IMG/VR virus record: IMGVR_UViG_3300031951_000587 | Location: 1-36,176 of that record | Source of the DNA: a virus | Length of the DNA stretch: 36,176 nt | Direction: 5' to 3' (one strand) | Part shown: positions 19,598-33,311 of the stretch, one piece after another | How the letters are laid out: each line of letters starts with the position of its first letter | Numbering within the stretch: position 1 is the first letter of the stretch | The notes under the pieces: model-generated | The model's input: the letters and a program-made list of their open reading frames with translations, nothing else | What the model was told of the DNA's origin: nothing | Database searches by the model: none | Program-made: the position numbers and the translations under genes

Positions 19598-20110
19598 ATG
19601 CGCCTCTTTTCTTTAACAGCCGCCGCCCTTATTCTCGCTAGCTTAACTAGCTGCTCACGGCACGTACAGAGGGCCTACGAACGCACCACGGTAGAGACTG
19701 AGGTAAGCACTAGCTCAGAGGCTTCCGTGTCAACTGAGGCCCTGTCTGAGGCCGTGAGGATGGATAGCGTAGCCCTCAAGTCTGGCACGTTAGAGATAGA
19801 GCTTACCGTAGACAGTTCGGGTCGGGTGAACATACCAGGTGTAGGGATAGTCGCGGCCCAGCCTGGCACTACGTTTAAGGTGAAGGTCGGGAGTACCGAT
19901 AGCACGGCGGTACGCAGATCGGCTGAGGTGAGCGAAACGCGGCGGGATTCTACGGGCAAGTCAGACTTGAGGTCGCAAACTGCGACCGATGCGGTTATTA
20001 AGACCCTAGACAAGGTGAGCACGTCAGGGCCTCCGTCGTGGCTGTGGTGGGTGGTGGCCCTAATCGGGGGCGTGGTGGCTGGCCTTATGGCGCGGCGTAA
20101 GGGGAAATAA
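19598..20110 (+). CDS. Lipoprotein with C-terminal membrane segment; candidate unimolecular spanin
   Basis: 170 residues. The N-terminus is a lipoprotein signal (MRLFSLTAAALILASLTSC) with lipobox LTSC, lipidated Cys at 19. The middle is a Ser/Thr/Val/Glu-rich linker that is beta- or coil-prone. The C-terminus has a transmembrane segment (SWLWWVVALIGGVVAGLMA, about 147-165) followed by the basic end RRKGK. Outer-membrane lipid anchor plus inner-membrane C-terminal segment is the layout of unimolecular spanins such as T1 gp11, which fuse the membranes at the last lysis step. The lysis genes sit just upstream. It is the last gene before the non-coding region. Confidence 0.65.
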   Translation: MRLFSLTAAALILASLTSCSRHVQRAYERTTVETEVSTSSEASVSTEALSEAVRMDSVALKSGTLEIELTVDSSGRVNIPGVGIVAAQPGTTFKVKVGSTDSTAVRRSAEVSETRRDSTGKSDLRSQTATDAVIKTLDKVSTSGPPSWLWWVVALIGGVVAGLMARRKGK

Positions 20111-20141
20111 AAAGCCCCACTAGTCTGTATCCTAGCGGGGC
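20105..20141 (-). terminator. Intrinsic terminator of the minus-strand RNA unit (distal)
   Basis: Stem GCCCC/GGGGC (20114-20118 with 20137-20141), continued by CTAG/CTAG (20120-20123 with 20132-20135), eight-base loop. On the minus strand it is followed by TTTTTATTT (20113-20105). On the + strand the hairpin is followed by CGCCGC with no T-tract, so it works for minus-strand transcripts. Confidence 0.65.
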
Positions 20142-20184
20142 CGCCGCTACACTAAGCCCTCTGCCAGGAGCTGCCACAAAGCTA

Positions 20185-20215
20185 CAAAAATAAACGGCCC
20201 CATTGCTGAGGCCGT
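20185..20215 (-). terminator. Intrinsic terminator of the minus-strand RNA unit (proximal)
   Basis: Stem ACGGCC/GGCCGT (20194-20199 with 20210-20215) with a ten-base loop. On the minus strand it runs directly into a T-rich tract (TTATTTTTG). In the + direction only a weak CGTGCTTTT follows. Two tandem hairpins with the same polarity suggest that a minus-strand transcript really is ended here. Confidence 0.65.
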
Positions 20216-20252
20216 CGTGCTTTTGGTGCTACCGCAAGCTGCTTAGAAGGTG

Positions 20253-20336
20253 GGGCCGACCTAGACTCTCGGTCACGGCGAAGCGAACTTCGCGGCGGGA
20301 TTCTAACCCGCGTCAGAGGCTTTCGCCTCACGGCCC
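20253..20336 (-). ncRNA. Compact four-hairpin RNA, cloverleaf-like, unknown family
   Basis: Read on the minus strand, GGGCC (20336-20332) pairs with GGCCC (20257-20253) and encloses four stem-loops in a row: GAGGC-GAAA-GCCTC (20329-20316), GCGGG-TTAGAAT-CCCGC (20311-20295), GCGAAG-TTCG-CTTCGC (20293-20278) and GACC-N9-GGTC (20274-20258). Nearly every base is used. Two loops are stable tetraloops (GAAA, UUCG). The second hairpin has a seven-base loop that reads either as an altered T-loop or as an anticodon loop with U33 and AGA (Ser). In that reading the third hairpin is the long variable arm of a class II tRNA. No true D-loop GG or TTC T-loop is present. Confidence 0.5.
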
Positions 20337-20340
20337 GCTG

Positions 20341-20412
20341 TGGACACAGTGGGAGTCGAACCCAATCTTTTTTATTGCAAGTAAGGCGCTCTTGCCGTTG
20401 AGCTACTGGCCC
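20341..20412 (-). tRNA. tRNA-Ala(UGC)-like gene with broken stems
   Basis: Minus-strand cloverleaf. D-arm GCTC-AACGGCAA-GAGC (20403-20388) is perfect. Anticodon loop CTTGCAA (20381-20375) gives UGC. T-loop TTCGACT (20360-20354) is canonical with four of five stem pairs. The anticodon stem CCTTA/TAAAA has two C-A mismatches. The acceptor GGGCCAG/TGTGTCC has two mismatches plus two G-U pairs. No CCA is encoded, only A at the discriminator. It could be a decaying tRNA, an edited or structurally tolerant phage tRNA, or a tRNA mimic. A -7 box lies four bases upstream of its first base. Confidence 0.5.
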
Positions 20413-20415
20413 GCA

Positions 20416-20423
20416 CAAAGATA
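20416..20423 (-). promoter_or_regulatory. Minus-strand -7 box (TATCTTTG) for the RNA unit
   Basis: On the minus strand TATCTTTG matches the Bacteroidota -7 consensus TAnnTTTG. It is three bases from the 5' end of the tRNA-like sequence, so transcription would start at or near its first base. A TTG (complement of 20452-20454) lies 28 bases upstream, longer than the usual spacing. The space between is filled by a palindrome. Confidence 0.55.
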
Positions 20424-20426
20424 GGC

Positions 20427-20451
20427 AACTAACCGGTAATACCGGATAGTT
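20427..20451. promoter_or_regulatory. Operator-like palindrome, 11-3-11
   Basis: AACTAACCGGT, spacer AAT, ACCGGATAGTT: 10 of 11 positions of each arm are complementary. It lies immediately upstream of the minus-strand -7 box, where a bound dimer would block or recruit RNA polymerase. A phage HTH protein such as the one encoded at 21026-21229 is a natural candidate ligand (inference). Confidence 0.5.
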
Positions 20452-20496
20452 CAACTGCGTAGGTCTTAGCGCAAACTATGTATAAGGATGCGCTCG

Positions 20497-20532
20497 GTAC
20501 GCATAGGGATAGCGATTTGCCTATTCCCGTAC
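20497..20532. promoter_or_regulatory. Second dyad between the divergent promoters
   Basis: GTAC (20497-20500) plus GGGATAG (20506-20512) mirror CTATTCCC (20521-20528) plus GTAC (20529-20532), with an eight-base centre. It sits between the minus-strand RNA promoter and the + strand early promoter, with no reading frame around it. It may be an operator or an RNA hairpin. Nothing else is recognisable in 20452-20585. Confidence 0.35.
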
Positions 20533-20585
20533 ATACTTCGCGTTTCTGTTCATAACGTGTTAGTAACTTATTCTGCCCTTGCCCC

Positions 20586-20615
20586 TTGCTTATTAGCGAG
20601 TTGCTAGTATCTTTA
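20586..20615 (+). promoter_or_regulatory. Early promoter, TTG-N19-TATCTTTA
   Basis: TTG (20586-20588), 19-base spacer, TATCTTTA (20608-20615). Spacing and boxes match the Bacteroidota vegetative promoter (TTG...TAnnTTTG) apart from the last base. It lies 29 bases before the first early gene and is divergent from the minus-strand RNA unit. Confidence 0.6.
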
Positions 20616-20644
20616 CGTCATAATCACTCACCCACTTTTACCCG

Positions 20645-20971
20645 ATGTACGAAGCCCGCCAAACCTCAATGACGCGCGTAGCCGACCTAGTTCGGCAAGG
20701 CAAAATGACCCTAGATGAAGGCAATGTCGAGTATGTGCGGATAGACAAGGTTCGCCTCGTGATGCGCAGCCTGCCCGCTAGTGTTCGCAAGGCCCTTAAC
20801 GAAGGCGTAAAGGCTGGCAAGCTAGGCCACCTCAAGAAAGACGGCCTCAAGCCGGAGGCCTATTTTCACCCCCTGCACAAGGGCACCGCAATCTTTATGC
20901 GTGAGAATCGCCAGCGGGCAGTGTGGGCCGCTACTGGCAAGATTATCGTCCCGCATTCAAGTTTAGAGTAG
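20645..20971 (+). CDS. First early gene, basic hypothetical protein
   Basis: 108 residues, basic (many Lys and Arg), with helical stretches (MTRVADLVRQGKMTLDEG, LPASVRKALNEGVKAGKLGHLKKDGLKPEAYFHP). No family recognised. A HPLHKGTAIFMREN segment near residues 75-88 gives a possible nucleic-acid-binding look, but no defined motif is present. It is the first gene behind the early promoter and is followed by a hairpin with a short T-tract, so it may be expressed more than the genes after it. This is the usual slot for a host-takeover or regulatory protein, which is inference. Confidence 0.65.
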   Translation: MYEARQTSMTRVADLVRQGKMTLDEGNVEYVRIDKVRLVMRSLPASVRKALNEGVKAGKLGHLKKDGLKPEAYFHPLHKGTAIFMRENRQRAVWAATGKIIVPHSSLE

Positions 20972-21025: not shown

Positions 21026-21229
21026 ATGGATTCTAAATCACTCACAGAACTCAGAGCCCAGCTACCGCGTGCGTGGCGGGCGAAGATCGCCAAACGGGTA
21101 GGGTGCGACCCCTCCTATGTAGGCAACATCCTAAACGGATACACACCCAGAGACGGCGAGAAGTACCGCAACGTACTGAACGCCGCCAAGCAACTCGCCG
21201 CCGAACACCAAGCCGCTATCAAAGCATAG
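21026..21229 (+). CDS. Small HTH DNA-binding protein (Cro-like, putative)
   Basis: 67 residues. LPRAWRAKIAKRVGCDPSYVGNILNGY at about 13-38 is a good helix-turn-helix: helix 2 AKIAKRVGC, turn, recognition helix PSYVGNILNG, as in Cro/CI-type proteins. The rest is a short helix (NVLNAAKQLAAEHQAAIKA). It starts with an ATG behind a C/T-rich leader. It is a candidate ligand for the palindrome at 20427-20451. It could also be a terminase- or host-related DNA-binding protein, but the early position favours a regulator. Confidence 0.7.
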   Translation: MDSKSLTELRAQLPRAWRAKIAKRVGCDPSYVGNILNGYTPRDGEKYRNVLNAAKQLAAEHQAAIKA

Positions 21230-31988: not shown

Positions 31989-32613
31989 GCCAAAGATTAG
32001 TATAGAATACCGCAAGACGGACGAGCTAAAGGCTTACGGGCGGAACGCCAGAAAGCACCCAGGCCAGCAGATAGACGCGCTAGCTAAGGCTATCCGTAGG
32101 TTTGGCTTTTTAGTGCCGGTGATCGTGGAGGCAGACGGAACACTGATAACGGGGCACGGCCGGGTTGAGGCAGCCCGCAAGATAGGGCTGGAGGAGGTGC
32201 CAACGGTTTCGGCAGAGGGGCTAAGCGCAGCGGAGATACGCGCACTAAGGCTGGCAGATAACAAGCTGGGGGACAAAAGCGACTGGAACAAGTCGGCGTT
32301 AGCGGCCGAGCTATCGTGGATTATGGATAACGTCGGGGATGTTGAGGTAACCGGCTTTGATTCAATAGAACTTACAAAGTTATTAGGGACGGAGCAGGGC
32401 CACGCGCAAGAGTTGCCGCCTGCGTCTATTCAGCTAAAGCCCGCGCAGGAGTACTTGGTGGTGGTTTGTGAAGACCAAGAGCAATGGGACAAACTAAGGC
32501 AAGCGCTGAATCTTGGACTTGTAAGCAAACGAGGGTATAAGCAAGGCTCGGACTTTGTAACAGTAGGACAGGAGCGCGTAATAAAGGCAGAAAGAATCTT
32601 AGAGCTATGCTGA
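31981..32613 (+). CDS. ParB/Srx-like N-terminal domain protein
   Basis: 210 residues. The first 110 match the ParB/sulfiredoxin fold: YRKTDELKAYGRNARKHPGQQIDALAKAIRRFGFLVPVIV, GTLITGHGR with the catalytic-type GHGR at 58-61, then VPTV, and RALRLADNKLGDKSDW. In phages this domain is normally followed by a DNA methyltransferase. Here it is followed by a 100-residue tail without methylase motifs (no DPPY), so it stands alone. ParB-like domains act as CTP/ATP-dependent enzymes or nucleases on DNA. It overlaps the glycosyltransferase gene by seven bases, which suggests a shared role in DNA modification. Confidence 0.75.
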   Translation: MGRPKISIEYRKTDELKAYGRNARKHPGQQIDALAKAIRRFGFLVPVIVEADGTLITGHGRVEAARKIGLEEVPTVSAEGLSAAEIRALRLADNKLGDKSDWNKSALAAELSWIMDNVGDVEVTGFDSIELTKLLGTEQGHAQELPPASIQLKPAQEYLVVVCEDQEQWDKLRQALNLGLVSKRGYKQGSDFVTVGQERVIKAERILELC

Positions 32614-33311
32614 TTGCGGTGCCAAGTAAAGGGCGGGCGGGCCGGACTACGACTCAGCGGCTTGTAGACGGGGCAATGTTTTTTGTGCCAGCGGGCGAAG
32701 TGCGGGAGTATCTCAGCGCGGGGATAGAATGCGTAGGGGTGCCTAATGACGTGAGGGGGATAACGGCGACAAGGAACTGGATACTAAAGAACACGGAGGA
32801 GCGGCACGTAGTTATGCTAGATGATGACATGAAATTTATTAGCTGGATGAAAATGCACGAGAACAATTTTGAGCAAATAAAAATGAGCGCAAAGGAATTT
32901 GCCAAGGAATGCCAAACAATGTTTGAGCTAACGGAAGGGATGAGCTACAGGATATGGGGGCCAGCTACGCAAAGCGCAATTAGGGCAGTGTACCCGTACA
33001 AGCCTATACTGTTTCGATCGTATGTGCTAGGGACTTGCATAGGCATCGTAAACGACGGCATAACGTTTGACGAGAGCTTTAAAGTCAAGGAGGACTACGA
33101 GCTTTGCTTGCGGTGCGTGAAAGAGGACGGGGGTGTAGTGGCGGCAAGGTATTGGATCGCCGAGGCTTCGCACTGGAAGGACGAAGGGGGGTGCCGAGAC
33201 TATAGAACGGTTACTATGGAAGAGGATGCCGTAAGCAAGCTAATGGCGATGTACCCTGGGATGGTAAGAACAGCTCGCAGGAAATCGGGCATAAACATAG
33301 AGATACTGTAA
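32607..33311 (+). CDS. GT-A glycosyltransferase, TET-associated-GT-like
   Basis: 234 residues. The opening MLIAVPSKGRAG, ITATRNWIL (52-60) and the metal site MLDDDMKF (DDD 72-74) are those of the GT-A family called TET-associated glycosyltransferases in phages. The back half (VLGTCIGIVNDG, KVKEDYELCLRCV with acidic base, HWKDEGGC) fits as well. Such enzymes are predicted to add sugars to oxidised or hydroxymethylated bases. No TET/JBP hydroxylase or base-synthesis gene is visible here, so the acceptor is unknown. The middle of the gene is more A/T-rich than its flanks, a possible sign of transfer. Its stop overlaps the small terminase start. Confidence 0.65.
   Translation: MLIAVPSKGRAGRTTTQRLVDGAMFFVPAGEVREYLSAGIECVGVPNDVRGITATRNWILKNTEERHVVMLDDDMKFISWMKMHENNFEQIKMSAKEFAKECQTMFELTEGMSYRIWGPATQSAIRAVYPYKPILFRSYVLGTCIGIVNDGITFDESFKVKEDYELCLRCVKEDGGVVAARYWIAEASHWKDEGGCRDYRTVTMEEDAVSKLMAMYPGMVRTARRKSGINIEIL

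Follow-up and report, generated by a model that had tools for sequence, protein, structure and literature searches.

A minus-strand unit in the longest gap of a phage genome

What RNA, if any, is made from the one long gap of a phage genome in which the protein genes all point the other way? The window, by which we mean the whole stretch of DNA analyzed here, is a virus record of 36,176 bases with 55% G+C. Matches to PHROGs and Pfam (tail, protease, portal, endolysin, Sak4-like, DnaB, ParB-like, glycosyltransferase and terminase genes) were all located on the + strand, and a gap of 534 nt (20111-20644) was by far the longest in the window, the runner-up measuring 111 nt. The minus strand of this gap contains a promoter-like -7 box and a tRNA, then a stable RNA of several hairpins, and finally two terminators with T tracts in the minus orientation only. 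An earlier note, made from the sequence alone, had described just such a genome, with every protein gene on the + strand and a minus-oriented set in the sole long gap, and this description was borne out for the likely protein genes. It had also proposed that the set is a transcription unit serving as a regulator, an antisense barrier or a tRNA mimic. A separate minus-strand unit is well supported, as far as sequence can tell, by the promoter-like box, the structured RNA and the tandem terminators; the proposed functions fared less well. The features, read from the right-hand end of the gap, are as follows.

20608..20615, + strand: candidate promoter TATCTTTA of the rightward early genes (by inspection; one base off TAnnTTTG)
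20427..20451, no strand: 25-bp palindrome AACTAACCGGTAATACCGGATAGTT, close upstream of the box; candidate operator for the minus promoter
20416..20423, minus strand: candidate -7 box TATCTTTG of Bacteroidota type (motif search; placement of the box at -12 to -5 from PMC9723704)
20341..20412, minus strand: tRNA-Ala(UGC) gene, nucleotide 1 to discriminator A73 (Rfam, ARAGORN, phage homologues)
20406..20412, minus strand: 5' strand of the acceptor stem, GGGCCAG (7/7 pairs with 20342-20349 once U 20346 is omitted)
20377..20379, minus strand: anticodon UGC in the loop CUUGCAA (ARAGORN)
20342..20349, minus strand: 3' strand of the acceptor stem, CUG-U-GUCC, with bulged U 20346 (G3-U70 at 20410/20344)
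20249..20336, minus strand: RNA of four hairpins, closed by GGGCC/GGCCC and beginning 4 nt past the tRNA
20185..20216, minus strand: intrinsic terminator 1 (hairpin 20216-20193 and T tract)
20105..20142, minus strand: intrinsic terminator 2 (hairpin 20142-20113 and T tract)

No sister phage was found using the 19598 protein and the portal protein as queries. A terminase search returned one 100% identical piece of contig, which does not cover the tRNA region, and otherwise relatives at 25-32%. The identical stretch belongs to a second IMG/VR contig (L101; 10,644 bp) and represents the same virus in another sample. Relatives of the metallophosphatase (41-48%) had no tRNA unit downstream of the metallophosphatase gene, relatives of the 20645 protein had no adjoining tRNA, and a broader phage DNA search with the region matched pentapeptide-repeat genes only. 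As no close relative covering the region was found, conservation of the unit was not seen, which counts against the explanation preferred below. Elsewhere in the window, a TET-associated-type glycosyltransferase (Pfam TAGT) is encoded at 32607-33311, between ParB-like and small-terminase-like genes, and suggests that the DNA may be hypermodified.

The first RNA is a tRNA-Ala(UGC)

The structure following the box had been called tRNA-like, and an Rfam search of the minus strand had been proposed as a check. It is an actual tRNA by Rfam, where the minus strand matched RF00005 with 35.7 bits against a gathering threshold of 29, and by ARAGORN, which called a tRNA-Ala(tgc). Our family model (R1), which includes the window sequence, scored it at 82.5 bits. 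In the canonical reading the acceptor stem has two mismatches, but the full 7 bp form when it is read as GGGC-CAG / CUG-U-GUCC, leaving a one-base bulge (U) on the 3' strand after pair 4. The T stem consists of 4 bp. The uninterrupted 7-bp acceptor stem and 5-bp T stem of a canonical tRNA are absent and, because non-canonical acceptor and T stems proved common to the whole subfamily, we regard the RNA as a structural variant of tRNA. In the window copy, three of the five anticodon-stem pairs form, C27-A43 and C28-A42 being unpaired, whereas most relatives have all five; the loss of these two pairs suggests that this copy may be weak or decaying. It does not encode CCA (nor do many family members), its MFE is no better than that of shuffles (z 0.0), and it is solitary, outside any tRNA array. 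The D arm, the T arm, the bulged acceptor, the anticodon loop and all alanine identity bases are intact.

The lower acceptor stem covaries in a bulged register

All of the tRNA-Ala copies compared, from the window and from Vibrio phages, appeared defective in the lower acceptor, and for this reason further members were sought. A pattern in which only the anticodon loop, the T loop and the GUCCA end were fixed yielded at least 107 distinct phage tRNA-Ala sequences. Among the matches listed, 25 of 107 distinct sequences had five or fewer of the seven canonical acceptor pairs, and 21 of these 25 paired 7/7 with one 3'-strand nucleotide left out after pair 4, a result that bulges elsewhere in the 3' strand or anywhere in the 5' strand did not approach. 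Among the same matches, the skipped base was U in 20 of the 21 distinct bulged members, and a complete 5-bp T stem was present in 4 of the 21, as against 62 of 70 members with a normal stem.

In an alignment of 17 bulged sequences, 100% of the acceptor cells were paired in the bulged register and 68% in the canonical reading, whose fifth pair never forms. Two-sided changes were observed at all three pairs below the bulge (C-G to U-A; G-C to A-U and U-A; G-C to C-G and U-G). Covariation across related phages had been named in advance as a check, and for the tRNA part the outcome was positive, the lower acceptor pairs covarying in the bulged register. Since the 17 sequences had been chosen beforehand as bulged, an open-pattern search provided a cleaner test, with any anticodon allowed and pairs 6 and 7 left free. 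Nineteen distinct sequences, including ones previously collected, were recovered, of which 17 pair 7/7 in the bulged register (about 14% would be expected by chance). By inspection, every one carries an alanine anticodon, UGC or, in a few cases, CGC. The group can be defined as GGGC-NNN / NNN-U-GUCC, pairing 7/7 only with the U skipped, and the window tRNA falls within it. Covariation shows the predicted acceptor to be a stem of 7 bp in which a single U, between pairs 4-69 and 5-68, is bulged. No bulged acceptor in a phage tRNA-Ala was found in the literature, and the bulged-acceptor phage tRNA-Ala is a type so far undescribed.

The bulged tRNA is borne by phages and specific for alanine

A BLAST search of phage records located the tRNA-Ala in 26 records of Vibrio phages, including KVP40, at 77-81% over 73 nt, and the bulged form was also found in dozens of IMG/VR phages. 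A GUGUCCA-ended pattern fitted 26 IMG/VR contigs, 22 of them bulged, and in a single scan of 84,980 bacterial and archaeal species genomes this narrow pattern found no bulged copy; the lone cellular match has a normal stem and lies inside an array of 18 tRNAs. Because the pattern is narrow and rare cellular copies may exist, these counts indicate a strong virus bias and not an absolute absence from cells. As a specificity control, 1,834 distinct ARAGORN tRNAs from the fetched loci were compared. A poor acceptor was present in 40 (16 Ala, 24 other); 13 of the 16 tRNA-Ala fit a U bulge after pair 4, while 2 of the 24 others fit any bulge, neither being a U after pair 4.

Of 29 carrier loci, 26 gave no further tRNA-Ala call; each locus being a fragment of about 1-14 kb, "sole tRNA-Ala" applies to the arrays seen. 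Two of the loci, L156 and L232 (23 and 24 tRNAs), cover all 19 other amino acids, and the KVP40 stretch, besides having no other tRNA-Ala, is missing only Pro. ARAGORN misses the bulged tRNA in 14 of the 29. The bulge is not confined to UGC, since tRNA-Ala with anticodon CGC at L268 4677-4747 and L270 1065-1135 fit the bulged acceptor, at 6/7 pairs. Locus L137 carries another tRNA-Ala(UGC) as well as a bulged one (1949-2024 and 2284-2358), as do L124, L159, L263, L264 and L266; phages with both kinds are hard to explain by codon supply alone.

The alanine determinants of bacteria are A73, G2-C71 and G3-U70 (PMC9976931). In the bulged members G1-C72, G2-C71, G3-U70, C4-G69 and A73 are invariant, and all 17 aligned sequences combine G3-U70, G2-C71 and A73 with an alanine anticodon, as expected of a tRNA-Ala. 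Irregularity of the acceptor helix was reported to be unimportant for recognition of G3-U70 by a mitochondrial AlaRS (PMC9976931). Because it is the only tRNA-Ala found in the rich arrays of most carriers, the bulged RNA is most likely the phage's working alanine adaptor.

Comparison with known tRNAs

In Vibrio phage KVP40 and its relatives (Schizotequatrovirus), the homologous tRNA-Ala (AY283928.2, 175581-175655; L108 2499-2573) is annotated as tRNA-Pseudo-1, and the phi-pp2 copy as pseudo tRNA-Ala(TGC). The KVP40-like tRNA is 78-81% identical over 73 nt to that of the window and shares its bulged U, G3-U70, A73 and UGC anticodon, but in KVP40 the anticodon stem is intact, the gene encodes CCA, and it is part of an array of over 20 tRNAs. 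We counted its GenBank label against our preferred explanation; however, with a full 7-bp acceptor once the U is bulged, tRNA-Pseudo-1 is probably a functional tRNA-Ala and not a pseudogene. Between KVP40 and VS1 the tRNA is 98.6% identical and the flanks 88-94%, a comparison too shallow to prove selection. The tRNA-Ala(UGC) of Pectobacterium phage Wc4 (Ounavirinae; MN270891) resembles the window's in its close sequence, G3-U70 and weak lower acceptor, but reaches only 6/7 pairs in the bulged register and has a T stem of 5 pairs.

Allo-tRNAs and selC* tRNA-Cys, as outlined in a review (Mukai et al. 2017, reviewed in PMC7609411), have 8/4 or 9/3 acceptor/T stems. According to that outline, they too depart from the canonical split between acceptor and T arm, a 4-bp T stem occurs among them and the T stem of selC* tRNA-Cys contains a bulged A; they stem from bacterial genomes and metagenomes, and their acceptors number 8 or 9 pairs. 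The phage tRNA, in contrast, has 7 pairs with one bulged U in the acceptor, is of alanine type and is found in viruses; it lacks the 8 or 9 acceptor pairs and 12-bp branch of an allo-tRNA. The tRNA-Tyr of phage T5 counters retron-Eco7 (PMC11555353), and a T5 tRNA-Lys variant is cited there as countering PARIS. In these supplements a phage tRNA is thought to replace a host tRNA, and the same may hold here, with the difference that the acceptor stem appears altered.

Promoter, candidate operator and terminators

The -7 consensus of Bacteroidota sigma-A, TAnnTTTG (PMC7366714), is placed at -12 to -5 (PMC9723704). It is not enriched across the whole window (17 found, 15.2 expected); 7 of the 17 copies lie within the 2.8% of the DNA that is intergenic (binomial P 2e-7, without correction for base composition), and the three exact copies of TATCTTTG are all intergenic. 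The minus-strand box reported at 20423-20416 is one of these, and the intergenic enrichment, together with the placement of the exact copies, makes it credible. The same pattern suggests that the host may be a member of the Bacteroidota. On inspection, TTTG was absent at the usual -33 distance from the minus box, which speaks against the preferred explanation; a TTTG -33 element could not be identified in Flavobacterium johnsoniae (PMC7366714). Transcription is expected to start at about 20411-20412, the first nucleotides of the tRNA, which would therefore be nearly leaderless.

In the palindrome AACTAACCGGTAATACCGGATAGTT, 11 of 12 arm positions are complementary; the window holds two such palindromes, against a Markov mean of 0.6. 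It lies between the divergent candidate promoters and is a plausible candidate operator, and a small HTH gene at 21026-21229, with weak Pfam matches, may encode a candidate regulator. On the other side, TATCTTTA lies about 30 nt upstream of the ATG at 20645 and is divergent from the tRNA unit. The two hairpins said to have a T-rich tract only in the minus orientation were confirmed; each has a GC-rich hairpin and, downstream of it in the sense of the transcript, a T tract, as in an intrinsic terminator, on the minus strand only. Five terminator-like sites were counted in the 1.5-kb stretch, against 1.1 +/- 1.0 in shuffles. Two more minus-strand TAnnTTTG boxes at 20177-20192 overlap the T tract of terminator 1 and could be either chance occurrences or a second start ahead of terminator 2.

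The four-hairpin RNA

The four-hairpin RNA claimed downstream of the tRNA (about 20336-20249) has a stable predicted fold (-42 kcal/mol), but the fold is not strand-specific (z -2.4 on the minus strand and -2.1 on the plus strand), and with values so nearly equal the fold alone does not assign a strand. Its GAAA tetraloop exists in the minus sense only. The second hairpin, GCGGGTTAGAATCCCGC (20296-20312), is T-arm-like, with 9 bits of tRNA resemblance, and could be the remnant of a second tRNA. The element as a whole was rejected as a second tRNA, having no Rfam or ARAGORN call and resembling tRNA in this hairpin only. It had no Rfam match, and the phage search found no relative whose stems could be compared with its own; the BLAST matches obtained in phages (Lactobacillus phage JNU_P2, Siphoviridae ctl617) were T-arm-like stretches only and were discarded. 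In JNU_P2 (L241, about 265-330), an unannotated tRNA-like sequence, CACGCATAGCTC...GGGTTCGAATCCCGCTGCGTGCA, with an unusual anticodon loop was noticed, for which ARAGORN makes no call.

Alternative explanations

With the first RNA identified as a covarying, alanine-specific phage tRNA-Ala, the regulator, barrier and mimic put forward in the earlier note are not the best reading, and a regulator or antisense barrier becomes unnecessary as the main function. The downstream RNA may still serve a separate purpose. The unit might be a regulatory non-coding RNA or a tRNA mimic whose four-hairpin part is active, and a second stable element (z -2.4) only 4 nt past the tRNA, with a minus-only GAAA tetraloop and a T-arm-like hairpin, speaks for this; the absence of any Rfam or meaningful phage match and a + strand fold almost as good (z -2.1) make it distinctly unlikely. 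The tRNA would then be a 5' processing handle, as where a tRNA is cotranscribed with a stable RNA, a version we find equally doubtful. In the tRNA region of phage T4, the stable RNAs C and D adjoin tRNAs; the window likewise has a tRNA beside a stable RNA, a likeness of arrangement alone. The hairpins could also work in the + sense, ending the late operon or separating late from early genes as a barrier of DNA or RNA. They directly follow the last late gene (20110), and minus-strand terminators would additionally shield the late genes from antisense RNA, but the T tracts occur in the minus orientation only and we consider a + sense role very improbable.

Two further readings concern the tRNA itself. 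Its acceptor might be merely mismatched, without a bulge, the degenerate stem being common by descent; annotators and ARAGORN do treat it as mismatched or overlook the tRNA. Pairs 5-7, however, show two-sided changes in the bulged register only, which renders this reading hardly credible and rules out a tRNA mimic acting through a mismatched acceptor. Alternatively, the window copy may be a decaying tRNA-Ala pseudogene, the remnant of a horizontally acquired phage tRNA from a subfamily that is functional elsewhere. The loss of two anticodon-stem pairs, the solitary position, the missing CCA and the MFE (z 0.0) are all in keeping with decay. Against it, the D and T arms, bulged acceptor, anticodon loop and alanine identity bases are all intact, a promoter and terminators precisely bracket the tRNA, pair 27-43 is missing in some relatives too and many other family members likewise lack an encoded CCA. 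We regard decay as unlikely, though with a real chance of being correct.

Proposed function and significance

The best explanation, which we hold to be probable, is a minus-strand tRNA operon with a bulged-acceptor phage tRNA-Ala. A Bacteroidota sigma-A-type promoter (box 20423-20416) would start the RNA at or next to nucleotide 1 of the tRNA-Ala(UGC), with little or no 5' leader, and two intrinsic terminators would halt it ahead of the late genes. The tRNA belongs to a phage-borne subfamily in which a U bulges out between pairs 4-69 and 5-68 and the T stem mostly has 4 bp, so that the 3' strand, from the T loop to A73, stays at the usual length of 12 nt. RNase P acts as a ruler (PMC4919913), and with the 12-nt strand kept the bulged U may therefore preserve the distance measured by RNase P and other partners. 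Once transcribed and matured, the tRNA would be charged by the host AlaRS and would read GCA, GCG and GCU codons during infection.

The bulge may have been selected for leaving the AlaRS contacts intact while altering the part of the stem that is inspected by other readers, for example toxSAS-type toxins. The toxSAS class has been implicated in immunity against phages, and one of its toxins, FaRel2, reads acceptor pairs 1, 2, 4 and 5 (PMC11559606); phages escape tRNA-targeting defences via their own isoacceptors (PMC11555353). A bulge placed exactly between pairs 4 and 5, with the alanine determinants intact, might fit escape from such a toxin. It is a tentative proposal, and in our estimate an unlikely one, that these RNAs form a phage tRNA-Ala class of their own, with a U bulge and a short T stem, selected for being charged by AlaRS yet unrecognised by toxins or enzymes that read the acceptor.

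Acceptor stems with a conserved bulge are rare exceptions to tRNA architecture; this one is borne by viruses and tied to one amino acid, and in the model phage KVP40 it has been set aside as a pseudogene. If the tRNA is functional, AlaRS, the CCA-adding enzyme, EF-Tu and the ribosome would all accept a stack of 11 pairs plus a bulge, and many phage tRNA annotations would need correcting. It would also offer a defined way of testing whether evolution lets phage tRNAs evade defences that read the acceptor stem.
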